This document shows, in pieces, positions 17,682 through 34,185 of a stretch of 34,303 nt of DNA. Origin of the DNA: a virus. Location: IMG/VR virus record IMGVR_UViG_3300036985_006530, positions 1-34,303 of that record; one strand, 5' to 3'. A program made the translations under genes and the position numbers. Under the pieces are notes generated by a model. That model was given only the letters and a program-made list of their open reading frames with translations. It had not been told where the DNA came from and ran no database searches. The number at the start of each line of letters is the position of its first letter. Position 1 is the stretch's first letter.

Positions 17682-17880
17682 TGAAGTTAAATCTTCTAAC
17701 ATTACAAAGACAGAATACAATACCGACACTAAAAAATTAGTTGTTGAATTTAGTAATAAAACTAAATATGAATATTCAGAAGTTCCTCATCAAATCTACA
17801 CAAGATTCAGATTAGCTGAATCACAAGGGAAATATTTTACAACAGATATTGCAAAAAAGTATCAATACAAAAAACTATAG
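17638..17880 (+). CDS. KTSC-domain protein
   Basis: An 80-residue protein matching the KTSC pattern: SSNITKTEYNTDTKKLVVEFSNKTKYEYSEVP, then GKYFTTDIAKKYQYKK. KTSC domains are about 60-residue beta-rich modules found alone or at the ends of larger enzymes and are common in phages; a nucleic-acid-related role has been suggested. The ATG at 17638 lies within the preceding gene. The stop is 22 bases before the next ATG. Confidence 0.85.
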   Translation: MAITKEIISGTTIINEVKSSNITKTEYNTDTKKLVVEFSNKTKYEYSEVPHQIYTRFRLAESQGKYFTTDIAKKYQYKKL

Positions 17881-17890
17881 GTTATTGTAG

Positions 17891-17898
17891 TATTTATT
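17891..17898 (+). promoter_or_regulatory. TATTTATT motif before the nucleotidyltransferase-fold gene
   Basis: TATTTATT ends four bases before the ATG at 17903. This supports the ATG over a TTG at 17897 inside the motif. Confidence 0.45.
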
Positions 17899-17902
17899 GA
17901 TA

Positions 17903-18655
17903 ATGAGTAAGTACCAAAAAATACTTGATAGTTTTTCAGTTAAAGAAACTCTTAATCCAAAAGTTTGGGAGAATTTTGAAGACTTAAAAAAAGCGACTAT
18001 GGTTCCAAAAGTCAGAAAGGCTCTTATGCACATTGCTGAGGTGTTTATTGAAGATTTGGGAGATGACGTTTTTGTGGAAGACATTTATCTAATGGGGTCA
18101 TTGGCTAATTTTAATTGGTCAGAATTTTCCGATTTTGATTTACACATTATCGTGGATATGGAAAGATACGGAAAACAAGAAGAGCTTTATAAAGAACTTT
18201 TTGATTTAAAAAAGAAACTTTTCAACGACAAACATAATATAAAAATATATGGGTATGATGTTGAATTGTATGCTCAGGGTGTTAAAGATGAGGCACACAG
18301 TGATGGTGTCTATTCTGTTATGAACGATGAATGGGTTCATGTACCATCAAAAACACATAAAAACATTGACATGTCTGTTTTAACTCAGAAGATAAAAAGT
18401 TGGACAGATAAAATTGATGATACAATCAAAGATGCAAAATCTGAAGGTAATGCCGAAAAAATAAAACCTTTAAAAGATAAGTTAAAAGATTATCGACAAT
18501 CAGGATTGGATAAAGATGGTGAGTTTTCCTATGAGAACTTGGTCTTCAAATTTTTAAGAAGGTCAGGACACATTGAAAAACTTTTTGATGAAAAAACCAA
18601 AATTAAGGATAAAGAGTTATCTGTAGAAACACAAATTCAGGAAATTCATAAATAA
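17903..18655 (+). CDS. nucleotidyltransferase-fold protein
   Basis: A 250-residue protein with a Pol-beta nucleotidyltransferase signature: LMGSLANFNWSEFSDFDLHIIVD (residues 63-85), that is G-S-x9-S-D-x-D, with D77 and D79 as metal ligands and a later Asp/Glu in GYDVELYAQ. The C-terminal half is a Lys/Asp-rich helical domain. Proteins like this are frequent in large T4-like environmental phages next to head genes. Transfer of an NMP to RNA, protein or antibiotic is possible, and the target is unknown. Opens YQKILDSFSVKE. It is the last gene before the structural block. Confidence 0.8.
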   Translation: MSKYQKILDSFSVKETLNPKVWENFEDLKKATMVPKVRKALMHIAEVFIEDLGDDVFVEDIYLMGSLANFNWSEFSDFDLHIIVDMERYGKQEELYKELFDLKKKLFNDKHNIKIYGYDVELYAQGVKDEAHSDGVYSVMNDEWVHVPSKTHKNIDMSVLTQKIKSWTDKIDDTIKDAKSEGNAEKIKPLKDKLKDYRQSGLDKDGEFSYENLVFKFLRRSGHIEKLFDEKTKIKDKELSVETQIQEIHK

Positions 18656-18670
18656 TTAGGTATAATCATA

Positions 18671-18678
18671 TATTTATA
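18671..18678 (+). promoter_or_regulatory. TATTTATA motif before the Thr/Pro-repeat gene
   Basis: TATTTATA ends 12 bases before the ATG at 18691, at the head of the long rightward late block. Confidence 0.5.
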
Positions 18679-18690
18679 AAGAAAAAATAG

Positions 18691-19560
18691 ATGGCTTTAG
18701 TTACATATCTCGTAGGTGCTTGTTCTGGCGGTCCCGCCATATTGGTTGACTTTGATAGTTCATCATTGCCAGCGGTTAATGGTAATTATTATTTAACATT
18801 TACCGGTGCAACAGCTGAGGGATGTTATGACATTATTGACAATGCTGAGCCTGCAACTGGTGTTGATAAGGTATTAACATTGTCTGTCGACTATGGTGAT
18901 TGTGTGACTTGTCAAGCGGTTGTTACTCCAACACCTACAGTTACAACAACTCCAACAAGAACTCCAACACCAAGTGTTACTGCAACAAGAACTCCAACAC
19001 CAAGTGTTACTGCAACTAAAACCGCAACACCAAGTGTTACACCGACTAATACCATTACTCCAACTGTAACCGCAAGTAATACTCCAACTCCAACTCAAAC
19101 AGGAACACCAAGTGTAACTGCAACTAACACTGCAACACCAACAGTAACAACAACCAATACCTCAACTCCAACTCAAACAGGAACACCAAACGCAACTCCA
19201 AACGTTACCCCAACCAATACCTCAACTCCAACTCAAACAGGAACACCAAACGCAACTCCAACTAATACACCTTCAGTTACAACAACCAATACCTCAACTC
19301 CAACTCAAACAGGAACACCAAACGCAACTCCAACTCAAACACCAACACCAAGTCCAACTCCATTCTATACAGGTATATCAGTAAACGAACTTTATGAATA
19401 TAGTGCAGCTATATTAGGTTCATTCAGTGGAGGAACATTATCTTCAGGTACAACAGTACCTTACGCATTATATGTTTCAGACACAAATAATGGAGAGACA
19501 ATACAGGTTGTTCAATTAAACGCAATCTCACTTGGAGGTCAATACGGATTAAATAATTAA
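18691..19560 (+). CDS. Thr/Pro-repeat virion protein (mucin-like)
   Basis: A 289-residue protein in three parts. An N-terminal Cys-containing beta-rich domain (1-75, with [11 protein letters not shown] and EGCYDIID) is followed by a Thr/Pro/Asn repeat stalk (about 76-225, units such as [12 protein letters not shown]) and a small C-terminal domain (about 226-289). The stalk has almost no charge or aromatic residues, like a mucin or fibre shaft, and may be glycosylated. No signal peptide. Its position at the start of the head-gene block suggests a capsid fibre or decoration protein. The DNA repeats make its length prone to change. Confidence 0.75.
18961..19020 (+). repeat. 30-bp tandem duplication in the Thr/Pro stalk
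   Basis: Bases 18961-18990 and 18991-19020 match at 28 of 30 positions and encode [10 protein letters not shown] / [10 protein letters not shown]. Confidence 0.85.
19151..19332 (+). repeat. three identical 50-bp repeats in the Thr/Pro stalk
   Basis: Bases 19151-19200, 19211-19260 and 19283-19332 are identical and encode [16 protein letters not shown]. Spacers of 10 and 22 bases keep the frame. Perfect identity at wobble bases points to recent duplication. Confidence 0.9.
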
Positions 19561-19580
19561 AACAAATCAATACTAAAAAT

Positions 19581-20825
19581 ATGGCAGATTTAAAACCAAT
19601 AGGAAGTGAAAAACTTCAAGGTCAAGATAAGATAAAAAGAATTATGGAAATCGCTCGTTTTAATGAGGTTATTCCAACAAATATCAACGAAACATCTCGT
19701 TCAGAATATTCTATTAATTTAGTTGATGGTAATCAATATCAAATCGTTAAAGAGAAGATGGGTTACATCATTAAGAAAAATATCAATGAGTCTGACGTAG
19801 ATTATATTGAGCCAATGAAAAATAGAAAATACTATTCTTCTTATTCTCAAGCTCTTAAGAGATTAAATTTATTAACTAAAGAAGTTAATAGACTTAATGA
19901 GAATGAAGAAGGTACTTCTTTATTTGGTGAACAAAAAAAATTCACTTTAAAATTACCAAAGCCGGCACCAGCTCCTGAAGCTGAAGTTCCTGCCGCACCA
20001 CCAGCTGCACCACCAGCGGTTCCATCTCCAGAATTACCTCCATCACCTGATATGGGTGCTGATATGGGTGCTGATATGGGTGCTGATATGGGCGGTGAAG
20101 ATATGAATGTTGACATGAATGCTGAAATGGGTGGTGAAGATGTAAATGTTGATGTTAATGATGAAATGGGGGGAGGTAAAGAAGAACAAGTTACCTTCAA
20201 AACAATTCAAAAATTAACTGGTAAGTTGACTCAAAAAATTAGAGTATTAGACAACGAAGAAGGAATGACTTCTGAGAATATCAAATACGTTATCAATATG
20301 GTTTTATCATCTTTGGAGTTAAGTAACTTATCAGAAGAAGATAAAGAAGATATCTTATCTAAGTTTGAAGAGGATACAGAAAACTTAGAAGGTGATGACA
20401 TGGGTGGTGAAGATTTTACAGACGATACGGAAGTTGAAGATATTCAAGCTGATATGGATGTTCCAGTTGAAGGTGGTGAAGACATGACAGGAATGGAACC
20501 AGGTAACGGAGCAATCATGGACAGCATTTTCAAAGAATCTAAAGTAGATAAAGTAATCTCAAAATACTTTGAAGTAACAAAACAAGAAATTAGAGAGTCT
20601 GCAGAAAGAAGAGCTGAAAAACAATTAAGAATTAAATCTAAAGTTAAGAAATCAATGAATTCAGTTGTTAAAATGACTGAAACAATTGAACAAGAATTAG
20701 CTGCTAAGAAATTCTTAGAAGAAAATTATAATTACACTTTTATCGGAAAAACAAACAAGAAAAACTTGGTGTTTGAAAATAAAGGTCAACAAAAGAAAAT
20801 TTCACCAGAGGGATTAGTACTATGA
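19581..20825 (+). CDS. acidic structural-block protein with Asp/Met/Gly repeats (414 aa)
   Basis: Not recognised. Residues 1-120 form a mixed domain. A Pro/Ala linker (about 131-155) leads to an MGAD/MGGED repeat (about 156-200). Next come a helical part (about 205-260), a second acidic stretch, and a basic helical C-terminus (about 320-414). The alternation of acidic low-complexity and helical parts resembles prohead core proteins such as T4 gp22. The stop overlaps the next ATG (ATGA), so translation is coupled. Probably virion-associated. Confidence 0.75.
   Translation: MADLKPIGSEKLQGQDKIKRIMEIARFNEVIPTNINETSRSEYSINLVDGNQYQIVKEKMGYIIKKNINESDVDYIEPMKNRKYYSSYSQALKRLNLLTKEVNRLNENEEGTSLFGEQKKFTLKLPKPAPAPEAEVPAAPPAAPPAVPSPELPPSPDMGADMGADMGADMGGEDMNVDMNAEMGGEDVNVDVNDEMGGGKEEQVTFKTIQKLTGKLTQKIRVLDNEEGMTSENIKYVINMVLSSLELSNLSEEDKEDILSKFEEDTENLEGDDMGGEDFTDDTEVEDIQADMDVPVEGGEDMTGMEPGNGAIMDSIFKESKVDKVISKYFEVTKQEIRESAERRAEKQLRIKSKVKKSMNSVVKMTETIEQELAAKKFLEENYNYTFIGKTNKKNLVFENKGQQKKISPEGLVL
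20049..20096 (+). repeat. 12-bp tandem repeat (four units)
   Basis: GATATGGGTGCT occurs three times in a row at 20049-20084 and once with two changes at 20085-20096. It encodes DMGA x3 then DMGG. Confidence 0.9.
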
Positions 20826-21217
20826 GTTATTTAATCTACGTAAACGGTTTAGGACCCAATTATAAAGGGGACAATCTTTACGAGTTTATTTTCTCTGATG
20901 AAAAGGATGTTTGGGGAGAGTTTTGGGAAAGTAAACCATCGAATGGTTATCCAACTCCTCCTGAATTAAAACATATTAAGAAGGTAGGAGTTCTGAGAAA
21001 TACTGATATAAAATTGGAATTGATTCAGAACTCCGATTTTTTTTGTATGATAGATGCGATGGATGACGTTGTCGCTTTAGCCTGGGAAACCGAAGAATCT
21101 GAAGGTCAAAAAAGATTGGTTTTTAGATTTGGTGAAGAAGAACAAATAATAAAGGACAAACTCTACGAAAGAGATTTGATATTAGAATTCGAAAAGAAAG
21201 TAGTATATGAAAATTAG
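20822..21217 (+). CDS. conserved hypothetical protein in the head operon (131 aa)
   Basis: Begins MSYLIYVNGLGPNYKGDNLYEFIF. A soluble, acidic alpha/beta protein with no motif I recognise. It is coupled to the preceding gene by an ATGA overlap and to the next by an 11-base overlap, which marks it as part of the head operon. It may be a small virion or assembly factor. Confidence 0.75.
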   Translation: MSYLIYVNGLGPNYKGDNLYEFIFSDEKDVWGEFWESKPSNGYPTPPELKHIKKVGVLRNTDIKLELIQNSDFFCMIDAMDDVVALAWETEESEGQKRLVFRFGEEEQIIKDKLYERDLILEFEKKVVYEN

Positions 21218-22082
21218 TAAAAAAGCCCTCCAACTTATTGATAAAGGAATGACAGCTAAAACTGTTTCCAAATTAACTGAATCACAAATTAATACTTTAC
21301 ACAGTAAATTATTTTTATCAGAACAAGTTCAAGAAATGCCATCTAAAAAAAGTTATAAAGTTGGACAGGAGGGTGGAAATTTGCCTCCTGCACCAAAAGG
21401 ATATAATGTAAAGAAAACACCAACAGGTGATGTTGTTGCAACTCCAAATGAATCTGAATTAGAAGAAGATGTTGAAGTAACTAATGACCCAAACAAAGAA
21501 ACCGAAACTCAAGACCCACATCAAGTAGGTCCATCATCTGATGACGGATTTGGTGACGAAACTGATGGAATGGGTATGTTTGAAAGTGAAAAGAAAAACA
21601 AACCAAACCCATGGTCAATTTGCCATTCTCAAGTAGGACCTAAAAAGTCAAGAAAATGGGAGAGATGTGTAAGAGAAGTAAAAAAACAATTGGGAGAAGG
21701 AAAAAATCCCGTATCTTTGTTTCTTGAAGCTCAAATTATGAATATCGTAGAAAGAAATTTACAACCAAGAATTACTAAAGGTGATTTAGTAAAATACCTT
21801 AGTGAAAGTGAAAACTTTGCAACAAAACATTTACAAGGTTGGGGAAAGACTAAAACGGCAAAAACTGAAGTAGGAGAACAATCACCTTCAACGGCACCGG
21901 CAAAACCAAAAACGTCTCCAACAACAAAACCAGGAAAACCTGGAACAAAACCACAAAAACCACCAAGTCCATTTAAAAACCCAAATCCAAATGAGAATCC
22001 TGCTCCAAAGGCTAAAAAGATTTCTCCTGAAGATGCGAAAGATGAGGTGATTGATGTTATTATTAAATTATTAGAAAAATAA
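21207..22082 (+). CDS. hypothetical virion-associated protein (291 aa)
   Basis: Not recognised. It opens with a short basic helix (MKISKKALQLIDKG). Acidic and Pro-rich linkers follow, then a conserved-looking patch NPWSICHSQVGPKKSRKWERCVREVKK (about 132-158; two Cys), a helical part, a Lys/Pro/Thr-rich stretch (about 217-270) and a C-terminal helix. The CHSQVG...KWERCV patch resembles Cys-Trp motifs in several phage structural proteins, but I cannot name it. It overlaps the previous gene and lies four bases before the next. Confidence 0.7.
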   Translation: MKISKKALQLIDKGMTAKTVSKLTESQINTLHSKLFLSEQVQEMPSKKSYKVGQEGGNLPPAPKGYNVKKTPTGDVVATPNESELEEDVEVTNDPNKETETQDPHQVGPSSDDGFGDETDGMGMFESEKKNKPNPWSICHSQVGPKKSRKWERCVREVKKQLGEGKNPVSLFLEAQIMNIVERNLQPRITKGDLVKYLSESENFATKHLQGWGKTKTAKTEVGEQSPSTAPAKPKTSPTTKPGKPGTKPQKPPSPFKNPNPNENPAPKAKKISPEDAKDEVIDVIIKLLEK

Positions 22083-22086
22083 GGAA

Positions 22087-23409
22087 ATGGCTAAGATAAA
22101 AGAACAAATAGATTACGGTGGAAGACGTGAAAAAATGGACCCAAGTTTGGAAAGAAAATTGGCAAGTCCTGATAGTTTATATGCACAAAATCCTGCAATG
22201 AAAAAAGGGGCTGCTGATGTACAAAGATTAGTAAGTCAAAGATTTGGTAAAGTTGCTGATAAACTAAGAGCAGTCGTAGGTAACAGAAATATTAGTTCTC
22301 AACAAGTTCAAGGGATGATTTATAATGAAATGATGAATAAACTTCAAAACATTATGAGAATAGAGGCGGCTAATAGGGAGCAACTTGAACAATTAGCGGT
22401 AGAATCTTCATTAGAAGAGGCACAAGTTCCTGAAGGTCAGTTTCAAATTGTTACACAATTAGGTGAACAACCTCAAACTAATGATTTTAGATATACTCCT
22501 GACGAAGACGAAGAAGAGGAAGATGAAAAGGAAGAAAAAGATGAACTTGAAATTCCATCATTCGATGTTGAAGATTTAACAGACGAAGAGCAATTAGAAT
22601 TAGAAAAACATAAAAGAAATATTATCAACGCTATCATTCAAGGTGCAGCAAAAAAGGGACATTACCTTTTTCAAAAACCTGATGTTAAAGCGAGATTAGA
22701 TGAAATAAACCCATCTCTTTATGGAGACTATTTGGGAATTATGGCAATCAATGATTTCATGTATTTTACAATGGAACAAATGATTGAAATGATGAGTCAA
22801 ACAGGTCAAGGTGTTGCAGGTAAAGTAAAATTAAGTAATGCCGACGAAGAAGAGGGTGAAGAAGGTGGAGAAGGTGAAGAAGAGACAGGTGATTCTCCAG
22901 ATACAAAAATAACAGCAACAGGTTTGATATTCCCTATCTTATGTCACGAATTAATTAAAGGATTCGAAGAGGCAAAGGGTAGACACGGTTTACCAAAAGA
23001 TGCTGGAATGCGTAGAAAAGTACAAGGTCAAGTTGATATTTTATCAAACGAGCCAATGCAATTAAGAATAGGACCTGAAATTGTAGAAAAACTTAGAAAT
23101 GCTCTACCAGATTCAATGTTTGATGAATCAAACAAAGGTCTAATAAACTGGTTCCATATCTTGTTATACCAAATACCAGCTCAAGAATTCTTGGAAATCG
23201 TAGGAAACGCCATCGCAGAAGATGAATCCAAAGTAAAGAAAGCAACTTCAAGATTTGAAGAAATCATGAAAAAAGCTATAAGTATGAAGGATGAATTTGA
23301 AAATTATAAAGAAGAAAATGTTGATTCTGACGAAGATGACGATGATGAAGATGACGATGAAGGATTGGATGATTTCTTAGGTAGTTTGGGGATATCAAGA
23401 CCCAAATAA
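22087..23409 (+). CDS. acidic hypothetical protein upstream of terminase (440 aa)
   Basis: Not recognised. Helical N-terminal domain (1-115), a Glu/Asp-rich linker (about 137-155), a helical domain with hydrophobic patches (about 165-250), another acidic linker, a larger helical domain (about 275-410) and an Asp-rich tail (DEDDDDEDDDE). No membrane segment. It ends six bases before the terminase GTG. Position suggests a head or packaging accessory protein; a small-terminase role is possible but the size is too large for gp16. Confidence 0.7.
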   Translation: MAKIKEQIDYGGRREKMDPSLERKLASPDSLYAQNPAMKKGAADVQRLVSQRFGKVADKLRAVVGNRNISSQQVQGMIYNEMMNKLQNIMRIEAANREQLEQLAVESSLEEAQVPEGQFQIVTQLGEQPQTNDFRYTPDEDEEEEDEKEEKDELEIPSFDVEDLTDEEQLELEKHKRNIINAIIQGAAKKGHYLFQKPDVKARLDEINPSLYGDYLGIMAINDFMYFTMEQMIEMMSQTGQGVAGKVKLSNADEEEGEEGGEGEEETGDSPDTKITATGLIFPILCHELIKGFEEAKGRHGLPKDAGMRRKVQGQVDILSNEPMQLRIGPEIVEKLRNALPDSMFDESNKGLINWFHILLYQIPAQEFLEIVGNAIAEDESKVKKATSRFEEIMKKAISMKDEFENYKEENVDSDEDDDDEDDDEGLDDFLGSLGISRPK

Positions 23410-23415
23410 TAATTT

Positions 23416-25176
23416 GTGACTAAAGAACAATTAATTATAGAAGTAACGAAGTGTATGAGGAACACACCTTATGCACTTCGTACTTATTTACAGACATACG
23501 ATAATACCGTATCAAAATACGTTCCATTAGATTTATTCCCTGACCAAGTAAGTCTTATCGAAGACTACGATAACCACAATGAGAATATTGCATTGAAATA
23601 TCGTCAGGCAGGTGTATCCACAGTTACTGCTGCATGGGCGTCAAAAAAACTTGTATTTGCTAAAAAACAAAAGCCAGAAAAAATTCTAATCATTGCCAAC
23701 AAGTTAGATACATCTGTGGAGATGGCTAACAAAATTAGAAGTTTTACAGAACAATGGCCATCTTGGGTTGGTGTTGGATTTTCACCCGATAAAAACGCAC
23801 AAAGACACTTTAAACTTACTAATGATTGTGAAGTTAAAGCGGTTGCAACATCAAAGGATGCCTTGAGAGGTTATACCCCAACTATCCTTATTTTTGATGA
23901 GGCGGCGTTTATCGAGGCTGATGGGGATTTTTGGTCTGCCTGTATGGCCTCACTATCTACGGGTGGTAAGGTTATTGTTGTATCCACACCAAACGGATAC
24001 GATGCAATTTATTATGAAATTTATGACCAAGCGTTAAGAAATATGAATGATTTCAAAATTTCTGAGATGTATTGGCATCGTGACCCAAGATATACAAAAG
24101 ATTTGTATATGGTTAAAACAAATGATTTAGTTCACTTTTTGTTGAATAGAGAAGATTATCCAAAAGATATTGTGGTTGATTTATCAATTGAGAATCCATA
24201 TGAAAGAGACCACTCAATAGTAACTTCATATATTGAGCAAGGATATAAACCTTGTTCAGCTTGGTTTGAGGGAATGGTTAAAAAATTGAAGTTTGATAGA
24301 CGTAAAGTAGCTCAGGAGTTGGAATGTAACTTTTTGGGTTCGGGTGATAACGTGTTTGATTCTGAATTAATGCAGAACATATCCAAAAATCAATTAAGAG
24401 AACCAATTGCCAAAATGATGGGAGGTTCTTTATGGATTTTTAAAGAACCTGAAAATGGTCACAAGTATGTTATGGGTGTAGACGTATCCAGAGGTGATTC
24501 TGAGGACTTTAGTTGTATTCAGATAATCGACTTCGATACAAGGGAACAAGTCCTTGAATACGTCGGAAAAGTCCCACCAGACATTACTGCAGAGATTGCC
24601 TACAAGTGGGGAAGTATGTATAACGCATATTGTGTTGTGGATTTAACAGGTGGAATGGGTGTTGCAACAGCAAGAAAAATGCAAGAGTTGGGATATCAAG
24701 GTGGTATGTATGTTGATAATGTTGATACAAGTAACAAGTGGAAATACGACCCTAAGTTAAATGAAAAAATACCTGGTATTAATTTTAATAATAAGAGAGT
24801 ACAAATAATTGCATCATTAGAGGAAGCTGTAAGACATGACTTCAAAATCTATTCTCATAGATTGTATAATGAAATGAATACTTTTATTTATGTTAATGGT
24901 AGACCTGACCACCAAAAAAATCATCATGATGACTGTATTATGGGTATTTCAATGGCAATTTATGTTGCAGAAAAATCTTTCCAATCTTTAACTAAGGTTG
25001 TTAATCATACTAAAGCAATGTTAAACTCATGGGCAACAACCGTAACAGAAAATAAAAATGCCTCTGAATTCTTTAATCCTATGGTTCCTCAAATGGGTAG
25101 AGAAAGTCGACAATTTAATTCTGGCCCCTCTAAAAGGGACTATCAAGAATATGGGTGGTTATTTGGTGGTAAATAA
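23416..25176 (+). CDS. terminase large subunit (T4 gp17-like)
   Basis: A 586-residue packaging motor. The ATPase has a Walker A variant RQAGVST (63-69), Walker B ILIFDE (157-162) and coupling motif STPNG (190-194). The nuclease is RNase H-like with GVDVSRGDSED (D356), CVVDLTGG (D409) and HHDDCIMG (D505/D506). It translocates DNA into the prohead and cuts concatemers. The start is a GTG; the region before it has no ATG. Length fits gp17 (610 in T4). T4 gp17 is followed by tail genes 18-19; here the portal follows directly. Confidence 0.95.
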   Translation: MTKEQLIIEVTKCMRNTPYALRTYLQTYDNTVSKYVPLDLFPDQVSLIEDYDNHNENIALKYRQAGVSTVTAAWASKKLVFAKKQKPEKILIIANKLDTSVEMANKIRSFTEQWPSWVGVGFSPDKNAQRHFKLTNDCEVKAVATSKDALRGYTPTILIFDEAAFIEADGDFWSACMASLSTGGKVIVVSTPNGYDAIYYEIYDQALRNMNDFKISEMYWHRDPRYTKDLYMVKTNDLVHFLLNREDYPKDIVVDLSIENPYERDHSIVTSYIEQGYKPCSAWFEGMVKKLKFDRRKVAQELECNFLGSGDNVFDSELMQNISKNQLREPIAKMMGGSLWIFKEPENGHKYVMGVDVSRGDSEDFSCIQIIDFDTREQVLEYVGKVPPDITAEIAYKWGSMYNAYCVVDLTGGMGVATARKMQELGYQGGMYVDNVDTSNKWKYDPKLNEKIPGINFNNKRVQIIASLEEAVRHDFKIYSHRLYNEMNTFIYVNGRPDHQKNHHDDCIMGISMAIYVAEKSFQSLTKVVNHTKAMLNSWATTVTENKNASEFFNPMVPQMGRESRQFNSGPSKRDYQEYGWLFGGK

Positions 25177-25177
25177 C

Positions 25178-25185
25178 TATTTATA
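25178..25185 (+). promoter_or_regulatory. TATTTATA motif before the portal gene
   Basis: TATTTATA begins two bases after the terminase stop codon and 29 bases before the portal ATG at 25215. Confidence 0.45.
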
Positions 25186-25214
25186 TTATTAAAGAAACGA
25201 GTTAAAATTATACC

Positions 25215-27059
25215 ATGAGCGAACAAAATCTGACCGTTTGGCAACGTTTGTCCAAAACGTTTGGTCCAAATTCTTTACTGAATCAAGATTATCCTACTTT
25301 CAAATTTGATAAGAAGGAGTTGTTACGTACAACAAGTCGAGATGAGTACGAGAAAGAAAAGTTACAAGCACAACAAACATTTTATTTGTCAGGTCAATGG
25401 GCAAAAGTTGAGAATAACATGTATTCTCAAGCAATGTATTATGAGCCTACAAGACTTTCAGCTCAATACGATTATGAATCAATGGAGTATACTCCTGAAA
25501 TTTCTGCAGCGTTGGACATATATGCCGAAGAATCTACAACAACAAATGAAGATGGTTTTATTTTACAAATTTATTCAGAATCAAAACGTATTAAATCTGT
25601 ATTGGCGGATTTGTTTAACAATTCGTTGGATATTAACACTAACTTACCAATGTGGACAAGAAACACTTGTAAGTACGGTGATAACTTTATTTACTTAAAA
25701 CTTGACCCTGAAAAAGGAATTGTTGGCTGTCAACAATTACCAACAATTGAAATTGAAAGACATGAGGCGGGGGCAAGTGCTAAAATTACGGTTAATGTTG
25801 AAAAACCTGAAAAGCCAAAAGCGTTAGAGTTCACATGGAAGAATAAAAACATGACATTCCAATCATGGGAGATTGCTCACTTTAGATTATTAGGTGATGA
25901 CAGAAAACTTCCTTATGGTACTTCAATGTTAGAAAAAGCGAGAAGAATTTGGAAACAACTTTTGTTATCAGAAGATGCGATGTTGATTTATCGTACATCA
26001 AGAGCTCCTGAAAGAAGAATGTTCAAAGTATTCGTTGGAAATATGAACGATGATGATGTTGAGGCATATGTACAACGTGTTGCTAACAAATTTAAGAGAG
26101 AACAAATTGTTGATAGTAAGACAGGTAACGTGGATATGAGATTTAACCAAATGGCGGTTGACCAAGATTATTTCATTCCTGTTAGAGACCCAGCAGCACC
26201 CGACCCAATTACAACTTTACCAGGTGCCACAAACTTATCTGAAATTGCGGATATTGAATATATTCAAAAGAAATTATTAACGGCTCTTCGTGTACCTAAG
26301 GCTTTCTTAGGATTTGAAGAGGTGGTTGGTGATGGTAAAAATTTGTCATTACAAGATATTAGATTTGCTCGTACGATTAATAGAATCCAAAAGAGCATGA
26401 TTCAAGAACTTAATAAGATTGCTATTGTGCATTTATTCTTATTAGGATTTGAAGATGAACTTTCTAACTTTACATTAGGTTTAACAAACCCATCTACTCA
26501 AGCTGATTTATTGAAGATTGATGTATGGAAAGAAAAAGTTCTTCTTTACAAAGATTTGGTTGCAGACCCAGGAAATGGTATTCAAGCAACGTCTTCTACT
26601 TGGGCTAAGAAACATATCTTTGGTTGGTCTGATGAAGAGATTAGATTGGATTTACAACAACAAAGAATTGAAAGAGCGGTTGGTGAGGAACTTAAAGCAA
26701 CTCCAACGGTTATTACAAAAACAGGAATATTTGATAACATAGATAAGTTATATGGTTCTACTTCGGGTGGAACGGCACCTGCAGCATCTACAGCAACTCC
26801 ACCACCAGCACCAGGAGGTGATTTGGGAGGTGGTGACTTAGGGGGTGATTTGGGAGCACCTCCACCAGCACCGGCAGGAGAAGAAACAGTACCACCACTG
26901 GCAGAGGGAGGAGAAGTAACACCGGAATCAAGAATGGATAATCTTAACATTTTAGTTGAAAACAACTTAATTGAGGGTAAATTATTTCTTGATTTAGGTC
27001 AAGGACAAGATTCTTTGGGAGAAATTTCAAAAGAACTTGATAAGTTGTTAGATTCATAA
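25215..27059 (+). CDS. portal protein (T4 gp20-like)
   Basis: A 614-residue portal vertex protein. Family marks are YTPEISAALDIYAEES (about 92-107; T4-type portals have DxEISxALDIYxDE), RVPKAFLGFEEVVGDGKNLSLQDIRFARTINRIQ (about 357-390) and a conserved helical clip/wing region between. The last 110 residues are a Pro/Gly/Asp low-complexity linker and a short acidic helix, not present in T4 gp20. It forms the dodecameric DNA channel and starts prohead assembly. Follows terminase by 38 bases. Confidence 0.93.
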   Translation: MSEQNLTVWQRLSKTFGPNSLLNQDYPTFKFDKKELLRTTSRDEYEKEKLQAQQTFYLSGQWAKVENNMYSQAMYYEPTRLSAQYDYESMEYTPEISAALDIYAEESTTTNEDGFILQIYSESKRIKSVLADLFNNSLDINTNLPMWTRNTCKYGDNFIYLKLDPEKGIVGCQQLPTIEIERHEAGASAKITVNVEKPEKPKALEFTWKNKNMTFQSWEIAHFRLLGDDRKLPYGTSMLEKARRIWKQLLLSEDAMLIYRTSRAPERRMFKVFVGNMNDDDVEAYVQRVANKFKREQIVDSKTGNVDMRFNQMAVDQDYFIPVRDPAAPDPITTLPGATNLSEIADIEYIQKKLLTALRVPKAFLGFEEVVGDGKNLSLQDIRFARTINRIQKSMIQELNKIAIVHLFLLGFEDELSNFTLGLTNPSTQADLLKIDVWKEKVLLYKDLVADPGNGIQATSSTWAKKHIFGWSDEEIRLDLQQQRIERAVGEELKATPTVITKTGIFDNIDKLYGSTSGGTAPAASTATPPPAPGGDLGGGDLGGDLGAPPPAPAGEETVPPLAEGGEVTPESRMDNLNILVENNLIEGKLFLDLGQGQDSLGEISKELDKLLDS

Positions 27060-27067
27060 TATTTATA
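27060..27067 (+). promoter_or_regulatory. TATTTATA motif before the 231-aa head gene
   Basis: TATTTATA begins at the base after the portal stop codon and ends 15 bases before the ATG at 27083. Confidence 0.45.
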
Positions 27068-27082
27068 TGAAAACCATTAAAA

Positions 27083-27778
27083 ATGACTTTCGGGCAAATA
27101 AAATCCATAATTGAAAATAGTTTAATTGAATCCTATAAGAACGAGGCGGAATTCAAGAAATCTTTAAGAGAATTCAAACACAACGTATTGAGTAATAAAT
27201 CTATGTCAAAAATTTACTCATTATATGACCAATTAAGTGTACCTCAAGGATTGTCTGAGTCAGATGCTAAAGAATATTTAGAAGAAGGAGTGAATCTTAT
27301 TCAAAAATTATTAGGAAGTATTAAGATACCTAAAACACTTTCTGAATCAGTAAATGAATATTCTGACATTGATACTTTAGTTTATTTAAACAAAATTAAT
27401 TTATCTGAAAGAGTTTCTGCAAAGAAAAATATTATTAATATTTTAACTTCTGAAAAGAAAACTGTAAAAGAATCAATTAATATTCCAATTAAATCTATGG
27501 TTAATATTGCCAATCAAACTCTAAGAAACTATATTGAAAATTTAAGTGAGAATGATAAAAAAGAATTTTTCCAAATTATTTCTGAAGATACAAAAACTTT
27601 AGAAACTAAATTTGAAACTCTTAGAGAAAGTACAATTAACAAATTAAATGTTATTTTAGAAAACGAAAAAGAATTTGAGGTAAAAACAAAAATTTCAGAA
27701 ACAATTGATAGAATTAAAAATGAAAAGTTTGACCAACTTAATTTCTTAAAATTGAAAAACTTAGAGAACTCAATTTAA
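27083..27778 (+). CDS. helical protein between portal and protease, possible prohead core component
   Basis: A 231-residue, Lys/Glu/Asn-rich, almost all-helical protein (MTFGQIKSIIENSLIESYKNE). In T4 the small core proteins gp67 and gp68 lie at this place between gp20 and gp21. It has several L/I-x-E tripeptides (LSE, LIE, LRE, ILE), the T4 protease cleavage pattern, as expected for a core protein degraded on maturation. I cannot show homology. Its last nine bases overlap the convergent bS21 gene. Confidence 0.7.
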   Translation: MTFGQIKSIIENSLIESYKNEAEFKKSLREFKHNVLSNKSMSKIYSLYDQLSVPQGLSESDAKEYLEEGVNLIQKLLGSIKIPKTLSESVNEYSDIDTLVYLNKINLSERVSAKKNIINILTSEKKTVKESINIPIKSMVNIANQTLRNYIENLSENDKKEFFQIISEDTKTLETKFETLRESTINKLNVILENEKEFEVKTKISETIDRIKNEKFDQLNFLKLKNLENSI

Positions 27779-27955
27779 TTTCTTTCTTTGGATATATTTC
27801 GCTTTTAAAATTTCGGTTCTTTTTAAGACCGATTTTTTTTTGTATTCCTTTCTCTCAAATAAAATTTGATTTTGTTTTGTCTTGATAACTTTGGACTTTA
27901 ATGTCTTGAGAGATTTTTCGATGTTCTCTCCATTTTTAATTTCAACTATTAACAT
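27770..27955 (-). CDS. rpsU: ribosomal protein bS21 homologue
   Basis: A 61-residue basic protein with the bS21 pattern along its length: MLIVEIKNGENIEKSLKTLKSK, a KT pair, a Leu-Phe-Glu-Arg segment, KKKSVLKRTEILKAKYIQ. Host Bacteroidetes bS21 has the same MLIxxIKxGExI start and SVxxRxxIxKAxYIQ end. bS21 joins the 30S subunit near the 16S 3' end, and in Flavobacteriia it helps hide the anti-Shine-Dalgarno. The phage protein could replace the host copy and bias initiation toward phage mRNA. No Shine-Dalgarno precedes it. It is the only complete minus-strand gene in the 18.7-34.2 kb late block. Confidence 0.9.
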   Translation of the reverse strand: MLIVEIKNGENIEKSLKTLKSKVIKTKQNQILFERKEYKKKSVLKRTEILKAKYIQRKKLN

Positions 27956-28047
27956 ATTATAAAATATCTGCTTTTTTTAAAAAATTTTGACTATCGGATT
28001 TATATGTCTTATTTTTATAATAAATAAACCGAATAATATGAAAATTA

Positions 28048-28488
28048 ATGAAAAAAGGAAAAAGTGTAAAGTTGAATCTTTATAATCCTATTAAATCGAG
28101 CTATGGGACTGTGGATTCTAAAAACTTAAAATCTATCTACATAAACATACAATCATGGGTAACTCCTAAATTTGAACACGACAATTGGAATAGAGTCGTT
28201 TGTAATTTAAGTAGAGAAATAAAGCACTCAGTTTACAATTCAATAACGACTGAAATTTTTCAAGAAAAAAGTATCGTAGATTTAGATTTACGTACGAGTG
28301 GAATATCTCATGGAAAAAAGTCATTCTTTAACTTGGAGGTCAATCTCTATACGAATATAGAATTAGATTTTAAATCTTACGAAATTAAAGAATCCATCAA
28401 AAAAATTGTAAAAAACATCTTCAAAAATAACATTAATGAAAACAAATATTTTGATTTTTCAACATCAAAAAAAGAAACTAATCAATAA
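28048..28488 (+). CDS. hypothetical head-block protein (146 aa)
   Basis: Not recognised. A basic, mixed alpha/beta protein (KLNLYNPIKSSYGTVDSKNLKSIYINIQSW). Ends in a Lys/Asn-rich tail. The ATG at 28048 is preferred; another ATG nine bases upstream is in a different, short frame. It sits between bS21 and the prohead protease. The region 27956-28047 holds no gene, only AT-rich sequence that must carry starts for both directions. Confidence 0.65.
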   Translation: MKKGKSVKLNLYNPIKSSYGTVDSKNLKSIYINIQSWVTPKFEHDNWNRVVCNLSREIKHSVYNSITTEIFQEKSIVDLDLRTSGISHGKKSFFNLEVNLYTNIELDFKSYEIKESIKKIVKNIFKNNINENKYFDFSTSKKETNQ

Positions 28489-28504
28489 ACTATCTATTAT
28501 TGGA

Positions 28505-28512
28505 TATTTATT
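28505..28512 (+). promoter_or_regulatory. TATTTATT motif before the prohead protease
   Basis: TATTTATT ends 12 bases before the ATG at 28525. Confidence 0.45.
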
Positions 28513-28524
28513 TTAAAAACCTTG

Positions 28525-29241
28525 ATGAAAAATCTTAGAATATTAGAAGCAAGTGAGCTTGGACATGGTATCTTGGTCGAAATGGATGCAGGATATGTTT
28601 CTCCAAAAGATGAGCATAACGCAAATATCTTAAAAGAGGCATCCAATTTGGACTATAAAAATCCATTTGAATTTTACGCCGTTTTACAAAAATATGATAC
28701 TCCAAATAGAAACGGTAGATTTTACCCTAAAAGAATATTAGAAAGAGAAGCAGAAAATTATAAAAAAACAATTGCAAAAGGTTTATCTACTTCAGAGTTA
28801 AATCACCCTGAATCTTCACTTATCGATTTAGATAGAGTGTCTCATATTATAACTGACATTTGGTGGGATAAGAATATCCTAATGGGAAAACTTAAATTAT
28901 TAACATCACCAGCGTTTCACGAAAGAGGAATTGTTTCAACAAAAGGAGACATTGCTGCTAACTTAATGAGACAAGGTGTTACTATGGGAGTTTCATCAAG
29001 AGGTGTCGGTTCTCTTAAAAAAGTTGGAGAAAGAAACGAAGTACAAGATGACTTCGAGTTAATTTGTTTTGACTTAGTGTCTTCACCTTCAACACCAGGT
29101 GCTTATTTATTTTCAAACCCTGAAGATAGAAACAAGTATGAAGAAAATTTAGATGAGGAAAGAAATCGTAAAGAATCAAATCAGTTTGCTGAGAAATCAG
29201 TTGACTTAATGAAAAAATTAAACGATTTTTTAGGAAAATAA
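28525..29241 (+). CDS. prohead maturation protease (T4 gp21-like)
   Basis: A 238-residue serine protease of the herpes-assemblin/gp21 type. TPNRNGRFYPKRIL (59-72) is the family's entry motif. LNHPE (92-96) holds the catalytic His94, GVSSRG (155-160) the Ser, and ELICFDLVSSPS (178-189) follows. It cuts core and capsid proteins after L/I-x-E during head maturation. The ATG at 28525 is chosen; a TTG three bases upstream is less likely. The first residues MKNLRILE contain an I-L-E, which could be a self-processing site. Confidence 0.93.
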   Translation: MKNLRILEASELGHGILVEMDAGYVSPKDEHNANILKEASNLDYKNPFEFYAVLQKYDTPNRNGRFYPKRILEREAENYKKTIAKGLSTSELNHPESSLIDLDRVSHIITDIWWDKNILMGKLKLLTSPAFHERGIVSTKGDIAANLMRQGVTMGVSSRGVGSLKKVGERNEVQDDFELICFDLVSSPSTPGAYLFSNPEDRNKYEENLDEERNRKESNQFAEKSVDLMKKLNDFLGK

Positions 29242-29247
29242 TTAAAT

Positions 29248-29460
29248 ATGGACGAAAAGTATTTTGTAGCAAAAATTCAGTACGATTTACCTGATGAGAA
29301 TTCAGGAAAGATTAAAAAAATCAGAGAAGAAAAACTTGTTAAAGGTTTTTCGGTAACAGATGTTGAGGCGAAAGTTACAACAAAGTACGAAGGATTCACA
29401 CACGATTGGAGAATAACTTCGGTATCTGAAAGTAAAATCGATGAAGTAATTGAAAAGTAA
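29248..29460 (+). CDS. DUF4494-like small protein
   Basis: A 70-residue protein: FVAKIQYD, then KIREEKLVKGFSVTDVEAKV and DWRITSVSESKIDEVI. This follows the DUF4494 layout (xVRYExxxExGxxKKVxExYLVDAxSFTEAE), a family I know mainly from Bacteroidetes genomes. Function unknown. It follows the protease by six bases in the same operon and is ended by a strong terminator. A useful host-range hint. Confidence 0.7.
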   Translation: MDEKYFVAKIQYDLPDENSGKIKKIREEKLVKGFSVTDVEAKVTTKYEGFTHDWRITSVSESKIDEVIEK

Positions 29461-29466
29461 TTTAAT

Positions 29467-29493
29467 AAAAGTGGTCAAATGACCACTTTTTTT
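29467..29493 (+). terminator. terminator after the DUF4494-like gene
   Basis: AAAAGTGGTC at 29467-29476 pairs perfectly with GACCACTTTT at 29481-29490, loop AAAT, followed by T's. Confidence 0.85.
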
Positions 29494-29503
29494 ATTTGGT
29501 AGA

Positions 29504-29511
29504 TATTTATC
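29504..29511 (+). promoter_or_regulatory. TATTTATC motif before the 112-aa gene
   Basis: TATTTATC ends 12 bases before the ATG at 29524, directly after a terminator, so a promoter is needed here. Confidence 0.55.
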
Positions 29512-29523
29512 AAATAAAAAATC

Positions 29524-29862
29524 ATGAACTTTCAAGTCACATTCTCCGCAGGTACAGGTCCTGTTAATTCAAGTTTTAAAATAATTAACGCTTCATCATG
29601 GTCGACTTGTTTGGCTTATTGTGAAGGGACGGGCATAGATATTAGTCAGATAAGTAATTTGGCTAACACAGAAGTTGTCATTAATGATGAAACAACAACA
29701 AATTGTTTTCAAGTAACATTAAAATCTAGTACAACACAATTACAAAATACTTATATGGTTTTTGATACAAGTTATAATACTTTACAAACTTGGATTGGAG
29801 CTCAAACAAATAAAACTGTTGTTAATATTTCTTTACAACAAAAAACTTACGTTGTAGTTTAA
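29524..29862 (+). CDS. small beta-rich protein, possible capsid decoration protein
   Basis: A 112-residue Ser/Thr/Asn-rich protein (MNFQVTFSAGTGPVNSSFKII) with three Cys (C29, C33, C61) and predicted beta strands. No signal peptide. It stands alone between a terminator and the scaffold gene, so it has its own expression unit. Composition and position fit a head decoration or small virion protein, but the family is not recognised. Confidence 0.65.
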   Translation: MNFQVTFSAGTGPVNSSFKIINASSWSTCLAYCEGTGIDISQISNLANTEVVINDETTTNCFQVTLKSSTTQLQNTYMVFDTSYNTLQTWIGAQTNKTVVNISLQQKTYVVV

Positions 29863-29891
29863 TACAAAACTACTTTTTTTAGTTTTGACAC

Positions 29892-29899
29892 TATTTATT
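29892..29899 (+). promoter_or_regulatory. TATTTATT motif before the scaffold gene
   Basis: TATTTATT ends 22 bases before the ATG at 29922. Confidence 0.45.
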
Positions 29900-29921
29900 A
29901 GTTAAAATAAATAATTTTTTA

Positions 29922-31625
29922 ATGCAAGAAAATAAATCATTAGTACAAGAGGCACTTATTCAAATGAGAAATGTTGAAGAAGCTATCGCCGAAAATGCAA
30001 AAGGAATACTTCATTCTACAATGAAAGAAGAAATCAATCAATTAGTAAAAGAATCTCTTTCTGAACAAGACGAGGTTGATTTAGATGCAGACATGGAAGA
30101 TGACGTAGACACAGATGATGTGGATATGGACATTGATATGGATGTTGATAACGACACAGAAGATATGGATATGGACGTTGATACGGAAATTGACATGGAC
30201 TCTGAGGACGAAAGTCCTATAGATTTGACTGACGCATCTGACGAAGAAATTCTTAAAGTGTTCAAGGCTATGGGTGAAGAAGACGGAATCATCGTTAAAA
30301 AAGATGGTGAAGACATTCACTTAACAGACAACGACGCTGATACAGAATACTTAGTAAAGCTTGGTGAGTCTGAAGAAGATGAAATAAACATGAACGAAAC
30401 AGACGAAATTATGAACCAAACAGAAACAGACGAGTCAGTACAAGATGTAATTGACGCAATTTTCTCTAAAGACGGAGACACATCAGAAGTAGATATCGAT
30501 GATGTTGAATCAGATGATATTGATGAAGTTGTTTACGAAATTCATTTAGATGATGAAGATGAAATGATGGAATCAGACGACGAAATGATGGAATCGGATG
30601 ATGAAGAATTAGACGAATCAGACGACGAAGAGTTGGATGAATCAGATGATGAAGAATTAGACGAATCAGACGACGATGATGAAATGATGGAATCTTATCA
30701 AGATGAAGATGAAATGATGGAATCAGATGACGAAGACGAAGAGGAACTTGACGAAGACGAAGACGAAGAATCTATTGACGAAACTTATAACCACAAAAGA
30801 GCGGTTAGAGAAGGTAAATCAACAGTTAAACCTAAAGGTGTTGGAATTGGCTCAGGACCTAAATTCACTTACAAAAATAAAGCTGCAGGTGGATTTAAAG
30901 AGGACAAAAAAGAAGGTCCTAAATCAGTAGGTACTGGTAAAGCAAAATTCGAATACAAGAAAGGTGCTAACATGGAAGGAAAATCTAAAGTTGTTAAAGC
31001 TGAAACGAAAGAAAATTATGGTTCTAAAAAACATGAATTCAAACGTAAAAAAGTTGATGGCGTAGAAAAGAAAGCTGGCACGAAAGATGGTCACTACAAA
31101 GACTACGAAAAAACAGAGACTAAAGAAGCTGCAAGAACTTATGGGTTTGGTTCAAAAGAAGGTAGAGGTTTAAGAAAAGGAATAACTAACAACAGAAATT
31201 ACGTTTACGGTAAGAATGGTGTTAAAGTAGAATCTACAGAAGCAGAAGTTAGTATGTTGAGAGAAAAGAACGAAGAGTATAGAAAAGCATTAAATATTTT
31301 CAGAGAAAAATTAAATGAAGTTGCTATATTCAATTCGAACTTAGCTTACGCTACAAGATTGTTCACAGAACATTCAACAACTAAAAAAGAAAAAATAAAC
31401 ATCCTAAGAAGATTCGACGGAGTTGAGACATTAAAAGAATCAAAAAATCTTTATAAGTCAATCAAAGACGAATTATCTAACGGTGACACACAATCAATTA
31501 CTGAATCAGTTGAAACAAAATTAAACAAACAAGTTTCTACAGGTTCATCAGTTAATCTAATTGAGTCTAAGACATACGAAAATCCACAATTCTTAAGAAT
31601 TAAAGATTTAATGTCTAAGTTATAA
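29922..31625 (+). CDS. prohead scaffold/core protein (T4 gp22-like)
   Basis: A 567-residue protein in the gp22 position just before the capsid gene. Residues 1-50 are helical. About 51-290 is extremely Asp/Glu/Met-rich (DMDVD, ESDDEELDE repeats). About 290-430 is basic and Gly/Lys-rich. About 435-567 is a helical coiled-coil domain (EVSMLREKNEEYRKALNIFREKLNEVA). L/I-x-E sites (LSE at about 46-48, LKE, LIE) fit destruction by the gp21 protease. T4 gp22 is half as long (269), so the acidic and basic parts are expansions. Confidence 0.85.
   Translation: MQENKSLVQEALIQMRNVEEAIAENAKGILHSTMKEEINQLVKESLSEQDEVDLDADMEDDVDTDDVDMDIDMDVDNDTEDMDMDVDTEIDMDSEDESPIDLTDASDEEILKVFKAMGEEDGIIVKKDGEDIHLTDNDADTEYLVKLGESEEDEINMNETDEIMNQTETDESVQDVIDAIFSKDGDTSEVDIDDVESDDIDEVVYEIHLDDEDEMMESDDEMMESDDEELDESDDEELDESDDEELDESDDDDEMMESYQDEDEMMESDDEDEEELDEDEDEESIDETYNHKRAVREGKSTVKPKGVGIGSGPKFTYKNKAAGGFKEDKKEGPKSVGTGKAKFEYKKGANMEGKSKVVKAETKENYGSKKHEFKRKKVDGVEKKAGTKDGHYKDYEKTETKEAARTYGFGSKEGRGLRKGITNNRNYVYGKNGVKVESTEAEVSMLREKNEEYRKALNIFREKLNEVAIFNSNLAYATRLFTEHSTTKKEKINILRRFDGVETLKESKNLYKSIKDELSNGDTQSITESVETKLNKQVSTGSSVNLIESKTYENPQFLRIKDLMSKL
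30555..30730 (+). repeat. degenerate acidic repeat in the scaffold gene
   Basis: Repeated units encode DDEMMES and SDDEELDE at least seven times. Codons differ between copies (GAC/GAT, GAA/GAG, TTA/TTG), so the repeats are older than those in the Thr/Pro gene or held by selection on the protein. Confidence 0.8.
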
Positions 31626-31664
31626 GATTAATAAAATAAATAAAACAAAAACAAATATTTTAAA

Positions 31665-33494
31665 ATGGGAGCATTATTAGAATCAGGTCTTGTTGGTAAC
31701 ATCGGTCTTAAGCACCTTAAAGTTATCAAAGAAGATACAATCAACAAATGGGACAAATTAGGCTTTTTAGAAGGTCTTAAAGGTCACATGAGAGAAAACG
31801 TAGCTCAACTTTACGAAAACCAAGCATCATTTTTAATCAATGAAGCATCATCTACATCTGACACAGGTGCATTTGAAACAGTTGTTTTCCCTATCGTTAG
31901 AAGAGTATTCTCTAAATTATTAGCAAACGATATCGTTTCAGTACAAGCAATGAACTTACCAATCGGTAAATTATTCTACTTTGTACCTAACATTCAAGAT
32001 TATGAAGCAGGTGGCGGTGGTCAAGATGACAACACTGGTATTCACTATCCTCCTTATGGAGCACCTAACGCTGACCCGACTCAAACACCTAACAGTGGTT
32101 ACGACTACAACGTAGGTAGAGACCTTTATGACAGATTTTATGAAGGTAACGAACCAGCATTAGACCCTCCAGGTTTATATGACTATTCTAAAGGTCAGTT
32201 CTCAGCTATCACTGGTACTGCAGTAACTGCACAATGGAATAACACAACATTAAACTTAGACCCATATGCTTATGCTTTAACTGATTACAGAAAAGTATTA
32301 GTTATCATGTCAGGTTTTGCATCTGACGCAGCAGGTAAATTAATCGGTCCTGATGGTCAACCAATGGATAACGAATCTTTCTTATCAGATTTGACTCTTT
32401 ATGGTATCGGTACTAACACAACTACATCTGGTACAACTAGAGGTGGTGGTGCAGGTCCTTACTTATTCAGAGTTGTAACTCAAAGATATGGTAAAGGTAT
32501 CGTTCAATACGGTAACAACAACTCGACATTAGTATTCCCTAACTCTAAAACAGGTGGTGGTCAATATGACAACATTTGTGACGCTCAAGGATTTATCTAT
32601 TTAGAAGTTGATTTACAAGTTCCAGTATGTATTACTTGTGGTGGTTCTATGGACGGTTACACAGGTTCTACTTTCTCTTCTTCAACTGCAAACAACAACG
32701 CGTTTGTTCCAGTTTACAGAATTTACAAGAACTTAGAATTTGAAGATAGAATTGGTGAGGTTTCATTTGACTTAATGTCAGTAACAGTTTCTGTAACTGA
32801 AAGAAAATTAAGAGCACAATGGTCTCCTGAAATGGCTCAAGACGTTGCGGCATTCCACAACATCGACGCTGAAGCTGAATTAACAGCATTATTATCTGAG
32901 CAAGTTGCTGCTGAAATCGATAGAGAAATCTTGAGAGATTTAAGAAAAGGTGCAGCTTGGAACTTAAGATGGGATTACAACGGTTGGAAGAGACTAGGTA
33001 CGTCAGCAACAGCTTACACACAAAAAGACTGGAACCAAACGTTAATCACAGCAATCAACCAAATTTCTGCACAAATCCATAAGTCTACTTTAAGAGGTGG
33101 TGCTAACTGGATAGTTGTTTCTTCTGAAATCAGTGCTATCTTTGATGACTTGGAATATTTCCACGTTTCAAATGCGGCTCCTGAACAAGACCAATACAAC
33201 ATGGGTATTGAAAGAGTTGGTACATTAGCTGGTAGATACCAAGTTTACAGAGACCCTTACTTCCCACCAAACCAAGTGTTAATGGGACACAAAGGAACTT
33301 CTTTGTTAGATACAGGTTACATCTACGCACCGTACGTTCCATTACAACTTACTCCTACAATGTACAATCCGTTCAACTTCACACCAATCAAAGGTATCAT
33401 GACTAGATACGCTAAGAAGATGGTGAACAACAGATTCTACGGTAGAATTACAGTTGATGGTGTTAGAACATTCGACTTAAAAGAATTGAGATAA
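31665..33494 (+). CDS. major capsid protein (T4 gp23-like)
   Basis: A 609-residue HK97-fold capsid protein. The N-terminal prohead part (1-60) ends SFLINE followed by ASSTS; the I-N-E fits the T4 gp21 cleavage rule, and T4 gp23 is cut at the matching place (SFLTE then A). Next come PIVRRVFSKLLANDIVSVQAMNLPIGKLFYF (about 76-106), the conserved gp23 segment, and late MTRYAKKMVNNRFYGRITVDG. A Gly/Pro/Tyr-rich insertion (about 110-290) is longer than in T4 gp23 (521). The gene ends at a strong terminator. Codon use favours a few A/T-ending codons, as for a very highly expressed gene. Confidence 0.95.
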   Translation: MGALLESGLVGNIGLKHLKVIKEDTINKWDKLGFLEGLKGHMRENVAQLYENQASFLINEASSTSDTGAFETVVFPIVRRVFSKLLANDIVSVQAMNLPIGKLFYFVPNIQDYEAGGGGQDDNTGIHYPPYGAPNADPTQTPNSGYDYNVGRDLYDRFYEGNEPALDPPGLYDYSKGQFSAITGTAVTAQWNNTTLNLDPYAYALTDYRKVLVIMSGFASDAAGKLIGPDGQPMDNESFLSDLTLYGIGTNTTTSGTTRGGGAGPYLFRVVTQRYGKGIVQYGNNNSTLVFPNSKTGGGQYDNICDAQGFIYLEVDLQVPVCITCGGSMDGYTGSTFSSSTANNNAFVPVYRIYKNLEFEDRIGEVSFDLMSVTVSVTERKLRAQWSPEMAQDVAAFHNIDAEAELTALLSEQVAAEIDREILRDLRKGAAWNLRWDYNGWKRLGTSATAYTQKDWNQTLITAINQISAQIHKSTLRGGANWIVVSSEISAIFDDLEYFHVSNAAPEQDQYNMGIERVGTLAGRYQVYRDPYFPPNQVLMGHKGTSLLDTGYIYAPYVPLQLTPTMYNPFNFTPIKGIMTRYAKKMVNNRFYGRITVDGVRTFDLKELR

Positions 33495-33512
33495 TCTATT
33501 CTTTGAAAATAC

Positions 33513-33542
33513 AAAAAAGGTCCTCACAAGGGACCTTTTTTT
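33513..33542 (+). terminator. terminator after the major capsid gene
   Basis: AAAAAAGGTCC at 33513-33523 pairs with GGACCTTTTTT from 33531, loop TCACAAG. Confidence 0.85.
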
Positions 33543-33552
33543 ATTCTTGATA

Positions 33553-33560
33553 TATTTATA
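33553..33560 (+). promoter_or_regulatory. TATTTATA motif before the last complete gene
   Basis: TATTTATA ends seven bases before the ATG at 33568 (13 before an in-frame ATG at 33574), directly after the capsid terminator. Confidence 0.55.
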
Positions 33561-33567
33561 AGAAATA

Positions 33568-34185
33568 ATGAAAATGGAAAAAAATATATTAAGTGAAGTA
33601 GACCAGATAAAATATTTGTTTGGATATAAGGCAGGAAAAGTTATTAGTGAACAAGTTACAACAACAGATTCTGTATCACAACAAGGGCCTGAACAAACTA
33701 TGGTTAAAACATCTGACGGAAAAGTAATTAAATTTCCTTTTATAAAAAATCAAGAAGATTTAGATAAATTCAAATCCGTGACAAAGATGAGTCAAGTGGC
33801 CGATGCGGGATTTGATACTTTACCACAAATTTGGAGTCAAATTAAAGCAAATCATGATGAATTAAAAAATAAGGGAGATGTTCAAGGAGCCGCAAAAGTG
33901 TTATCAACATCATATGTTTCAAAAGTTATTCGAGCAATGGTTAATCTTTTAGAATTATCTGCGGTTCTTGGTATGAATGGTGATACGTTAAAAACAACTT
34001 ATGGTGATAGACTTTTATCTTTTTTGGATACTCGTACACCTTTAGATGGTTATAAATGGGCAGATGCTTTGGGAGAAGATAAAGATAAATTTATTAATTC
34101 CTATGTTAATCTTATTAATGGTCGAATAAAATCTTTTGGAGGTGACCCAACACAATTTGTTGGAACAACTAAAAAAATTGGTTAA
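33568..34185 (+). CDS. hypothetical virion-type protein with LSE/ISE N-terminus (205 aa)
   Basis: Opens MKMEKNILSEVDQIKYLFGYKAG then KVISEQV: an amphipathic helix with two L/I-x-E sites, like the capsid-targeting peptides of T4 internal proteins. The rest is a soluble helical domain (VTKMSQVADAGFDTLPQIWSQIKANHDELKN) with no motif I know. A second ATG at residue 3 is possible. It is monocistronic, between two terminators. An internal head protein is my best guess. Confidence 0.7.
   Translation: MKMEKNILSEVDQIKYLFGYKAGKVISEQVTTTDSVSQQGPEQTMVKTSDGKVIKFPFIKNQEDLDKFKSVTKMSQVADAGFDTLPQIWSQIKANHDELKNKGDVQGAAKVLSTSYVSKVIRAMVNLLELSAVLGMNGDTLKTTYGDRLLSFLDTRTPLDGYKWADALGEDKDKFINSYVNLINGRIKSFGGDPTQFVGTTKKIG

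Follow-up and report, generated by a model that had tools for sequence, protein, structure and literature searches.

An antisense bS21 gene without a Shine-Dalgarno sequence, conserved in the head-gene block of a group of phages

The window, by which we mean the whole stretch of DNA analysed, is a linear virus record of 34,303 bases with a GC content of 33%. Judging from published relatives it is most likely part of a genome some 300 kb long; among the related records examined, the longest one with the gene block described here has 165,509 bases. The forward strand of this block encodes, in this order, the terminase large subunit (23416..25176), the portal protein (25215..27059; phrog_213, E=1.5e-65), a 231-aa protein of unknown function (27083..27778), predicted to be all-helical by a low-confidence model (pLDDT 66), a conserved 146-aa protein (28048..28488), a T4-type prohead protease of the Peptidase_S77 family (28522..29241) and the major head protein (31665..33494; phrog_138). 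The gene for ribosomal protein bS21 (27770..27955, reverse strand), flanked by the 231-aa and 146-aa genes, lies between the portal and prohead protease genes and is thus, as a preliminary description of this DNA had stated, antisense within the head-gene block. It is the sole credible reverse gene within 17346-34185, although about 18 forward genes are counted there and not the 16 late genes given previously. Elsewhere, the window contains 14 tRNA genes clustered at 155-2626 and encodes an Hsp20 and a ClpA/B-like ATPase.

This arrangement is strongly conserved. Among the best 80 of 583 relatives confirmed in IMG/VR, all 80 have bS21 antisense to its two neighbours, the 231-aa and 146-aa genes, and any portal, terminase, protease or head gene that was found in them is likewise on the strand opposite bS21. 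The stop codons of bS21 and the 231-aa gene overlap by 9 bp in the window; of 72 distinct cases, 71 show an overlap of 4-9 bp, and in the remaining one the two codons abut. On the other side, the 146-aa gene adjoins bS21 in all of the best 80 of 583 relatives, and it is present elsewhere without bS21. The divergent gap between these two genes is 92 bp in the window (80-102 bp in a second set of loci) and holds a Bacteroidota-type promoter-like site for the 146-aa gene, TTTG-N20/21-TATTTTTA (27986..28020, forward strand). The 146-aa protein is modelled with confidence as an alpha/beta fold (pLDDT 89) that does not clearly correspond to a known one: Foldseek gave no PDB match with E < 0.001, the best VIA match, a secretion chaperone, has a Z of 8.0 that is within the range of chance arrangements, and the sole clear structural match is an uncharacterised viral (Myoviridae) protein (TM 0.83). 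With PDB matches this weak, we rejected assigning a function to this neighbour from its fold.

The 61-aa product of the reverse gene, MLIVEIKNGENIEKSLKTLKSKVIKTKQNQILFERKEYKKKSVLKRTEILKAKYIQRKKLN, which begins at an ATG, is a genuine bS21 (rpsU-like) protein, in agreement with the preliminary description. An HMM search, named there as a possible refutation, groups it with Pfam family PF01165 (Ribosomal_S21; E=1.5e-7, 31.5 bits, cut-off 27), residues 4-55 being aligned with profile positions 2-53 of 55, and the best PDB match is the bS21 of F. johnsoniae (7JIL; E=4e-9), in a near end-to-end alignment of residues 1-59. The score for the NCBIfam equivalog TIGR00030 is under the cut-off (18.6 vs 28.95 bits), as is to be expected of a divergent bS21 copy. 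Residue 54 is a tyrosine, the aromatic residue of the Bacteroidota-type bS21 that occludes the anti-Shine-Dalgarno (anti-SD), and Tyr54 is kept in all 81 phage and all 80 host copies. Residues 19-28 are near-fixed within each group, reading LKSKVIKTKQ in the phages and YKRKFDKTGT in the hosts, and residues 21-30, SKVIKTKQNQ, constitute a phage signature. The identical protein is encoded by five phage contigs, the window included, despite synonymous divergence (dS 0.2-0.3, dN 0), and this, together with the low dN/dS, shows that it is not a chance open reading frame.

Across 85 pairs of phage bS21 genes the median dN/dS is 0.05, indicating that the gene evolves under strong purifying selection. 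The phylogeny of phage and host bS21 proposed in the preliminary description places 34 distinct phage proteins in a single clade, with support of 100/100 when set against 55 cellular copies and of 100/99 when set against 35, on alignments that are short (64 columns). We rejected the idea that the gene was acquired recently from a host because the phage proteins are at most about 55% identical to the sampled cellular copies, including those of all Bacteroidia genomes sampled.

The earlier observation that no Shine-Dalgarno (SD) sequence precedes the bS21 ATG proved to be systematic. The translation-initiation region (27956..27977, reverse strand) is A/T-rich, and when the 22 bases before the start were paired with the 16S tail of Flavobacterium, which we take to be AUCACCUCCUUUCU, the best pairing was -2.4 kcal/mol, as opposed to the extended SD with a dG below -13 kcal/mol that typifies autoregulated Flavobacteriales rpsU genes. 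None of the 80 phage bS21 genes is at or below -7 kcal/mol (median -1.1, best -6.6), whereas all 80 Flavobacteriaceae-like host rpsU genes are at or below -13 kcal/mol (median -19.8); mock windows gave values near zero, and the best pairing at 65 further phage loci, partly on the same contigs as the 80, was -5.0 kcal/mol. It should be noted that this contrast depends on the order to which the host belongs: of the 30 Bacteroidia copies most similar to the phage protein, 11 reach -13 kcal/mol and 16 are essentially devoid of an SD. The lack of an SD had also been ascribed to the phage genes of the window in general, which applies to most of them; a small number of ORFs have values of -5 to -7 kcal/mol, still a long way from the median of host rpsU. 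In the literature searched, we found no earlier report of phage bS21 genes lacking an SD as compared with host rpsU.

Being antisense, bS21 needs its own promoter. The preliminary description had gone on to suggest a timing of its own, a view contradicted by RNA data published for related phages, in which bS21 is co-transcribed with the structural genes in late infection (PMC9723584). A candidate late promoter of the phage is the element TATTTAT, which in the window precedes 8 of 20 late genes (0.8 expected) and in all representatives checked is present before the portal, 231-aa, protease and 567-aa genes, being invariant across relatives before the first three. Sites in the window with the element upstream include 18691, 25215, 27083, 28522, 29524, 29922 and 33568. 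A related sequence, GATATTT(N)TA, for which no enrichment was seen elsewhere in related contigs, directly precedes the bS21 start, the conserved ATATTT element (GATATTTTA in the window) being located at about -13 to -5; among 34 distinct relatives, GATATTT is present at this place in 25 and ATATTT in 28. If GATATTT(N)TA were a promoter, the bS21 message would, as a conjecture, be nearly leaderless. The motif GATATTTGTA was rejected as a genome-wide promoter, as it is not enriched elsewhere in related contigs.

The bS21 gene also carries, on the strand of the late genes, a terminator-like hairpin, TCGGTTCTTTTTAAGACCGA, followed by nine T (27813..27841; stem-loop 27813-27832, T9 27833-27841), which falls within bS21 codons 39-48; one such structure was found vs 0.2 expected. 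A similar hairpin with a T-tract is present at the same codons in about half of the distinct relatives (about 40 of 72), in a survey where another candidate in the window scored higher than this hairpin. Three versions of it exist (TCGGT/ACCGA, TCTGT/ACAGA and TCAGT/ACTGA; loci L006-L075, codons 39-50). In 22 of 22 rows the synonymous third base of the Ser42 codon is matched to that of codon 47, with three pair types, in a set that was selected for having the hairpin and whose registers differ between versions. Covariation within a single register was rejected, as the two main versions differ in register and the pair counts are mixed. In most hairpin-bearing clades the stems exceed those of synonymous recodings (shuffle fraction 0 to 0.03), the window's hairpin doing so marginally (0.05). 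Host rpsU genes have no T-tract at the matching site, and in the clade of 62-aa phage bS21 proteins no hairpin was found at these codons, apart from one weak case. In the clades that bear it, the hairpin may well be the terminator of the portal-231-aa transcript.

Eleven loci (L235, L243, L245, L247, L248, L253, L255, L258, L264, L267 and L270) keep the head block and the 146-aa neighbour without bS21 at the site. Their terminases, where the gene is held, are 82-86% identical, and about 137 bp separate their 231-aa and 146-aa genes; this interval holds a free-standing strong hairpin with a T-tract and the promoter-like site of the 146-aa gene. No S21 match was found in the eight records of these phages that were searched, all of them fragments. 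That bS21 and the 146-aa gene always go together, which was suggested previously (PMC9723584) if the latter corresponds to the bS21_CN gene of that study, is excluded by these loci. In a tree of the neighbour, the bS21-less loci form one group (99/98), and midpoint rooting of this outgroup-free tree favours loss of bS21 in the sister group, ancestral absence being a possible alternative. The existence of this group suggests that bS21 is dispensable in some settings.

The antisense arrangement itself was already published in 2022: Chen et al. described Bacteroidetes phages with a reverse-strand bS21 gene in their terminase/portal/protease/MCP region (PMC9723584), and the window phage belongs to that kind. 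As in their clades a-e, bS21 is antisense in this block between two flanking hypothetical families, and the likeness extends to the GC content (about 31-34% in those phages), the many tRNAs, the Hsp20 and Clp-like genes and Tyr54, which is conserved in their bS21 proteins along with a diverged N-terminal helix (PMC9723584). Their genomes measure about 293-331 kb, compared with the 34,303 bases of the window, and a Flavobacterium spacer match was reported for related phages (PMC9723584). The best terminase match among the phage records searched, from which the genomes of Chen et al. are absent, has about 29% identity. What we add to that report, in which none of them appears, are the systematic absence of an SD as opposed to host rpsU, the frequent probable terminator on the opposite strand, and the sister phages with an 86% identical terminase that lack bS21 at the site but have the 146-aa neighbour. 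The limit of bS21 was placed near 70% terminase similarity (PMC9723584). No other ribosomal protein is borne by phages nearly as often as bS21 (PMC9976891), and other examples are known (PMC6375957; the huge-phage record LR756501 and others), one of which enters E. coli ribosomes; the named phage records found are at most 57% identical to the present protein and come from different hosts or genome contexts. With the rpsU of Flavobacteriales, for which SD-based autoregulation was shown and a role of phage bS21 speculated upon (McNutt et al. 2023, PMC9976891), the phage gene shares the bS21 family, Tyr54 and the expected anti-SD occlusion, but it lacks the extended SD.

Taken as a whole, these data are probably best explained by a vertically kept, late-expressed, SD-less bS21 that enters the 30S subunits of the host. 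A large Bacteroidota myophage would carry an old antisense bS21 gene at the boundary of two late transcription units, one on the portal side and one on the protease side, and would transcribe it in late infection from its own promoter. The SD-less message would be translated like other phage and host mRNAs by replete Bacteroidota ribosomes that sequester their anti-SD, and the protein would be expected to bind the 30S subunits of the host at the bS21 site. As it retains Tyr54 and the C-terminal half, the anti-SD should stay hidden, while the changed N-terminal helix and turn (SKVIKTKQNQ for RKFDKTGTVRQ) would alter the mRNA-facing surface and may thereby favour phage mRNA; both the incorporation into ribosomes of this host and the mRNA preference are what we infer. 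If, instead, the phage copy merely topped up bS21 lost or degraded during infection and left the choice of mRNA unchanged, the strong purifying selection and the conserved Tyr54 would be accounted for, and the absence of the gene in the sister group would fit a dispensable supplement; yet a top-up would not need a near-fixed mRNA-facing segment wholly unlike that of the host, and we regard this reading as rather doubtful.

A toxic or shut-off role is conceivable because a tested phage bS21, that of a pelagiphage, entered E. coli ribosomes and left them about 5% active in vitro (Mizuno et al. 2019, PMC6375957). Phage bS21 would then poison or slow the translation of SD-less host mRNA without selecting phage mRNA. 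However, that result came from a mismatched host, the phage protein conserves Tyr54 and its C-terminal half, and phage mRNAs are SD-less like those of the host, so that a general late shut-off would harm the phage itself; we consider such a role improbable. The location among head genes and the possibility of packaging raised in PMC9723584 could point to a function outside the ribosome, either in the virion or, through RNA binding, in the assembly of the head, but there is no evidence of a virion signal, and conservation of the ribosome-contact residue Tyr54 speaks against it, making this the least credible of the alternatives, and very unlikely.

The preliminary description had further proposed that the phage copy escapes the feedback acting on host rpsU. 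The absence of an SD on which this rests holds, but the proposal is overstated, since the escape itself would apply only if the host's order has a strong rpsU SD. A tentative extension, which we rate as no likelier than the top-up, is that SD-less phage bS21, produced whatever the bS21 status of the ribosomes, fills free sites, keeps the anti-SD hidden and so shuts down host rpsU, which can be translated only by ribosomes that lack bS21; the host's own feedback would thus be turned against it. If true, the ribosome pool would drift to phage bS21 without destruction of host bS21.

In Flavobacteriales the host gene is under strong SD-dependent feedback. The SD argument was the most useful part of the preliminary description, its reach depending on which host the phage has. 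The bS21-less sister phages provide a natural comparison group, and with the SD completely lacking from the phage copies, what had been a vague "ribosome hijack" becomes testable with existing reporters.
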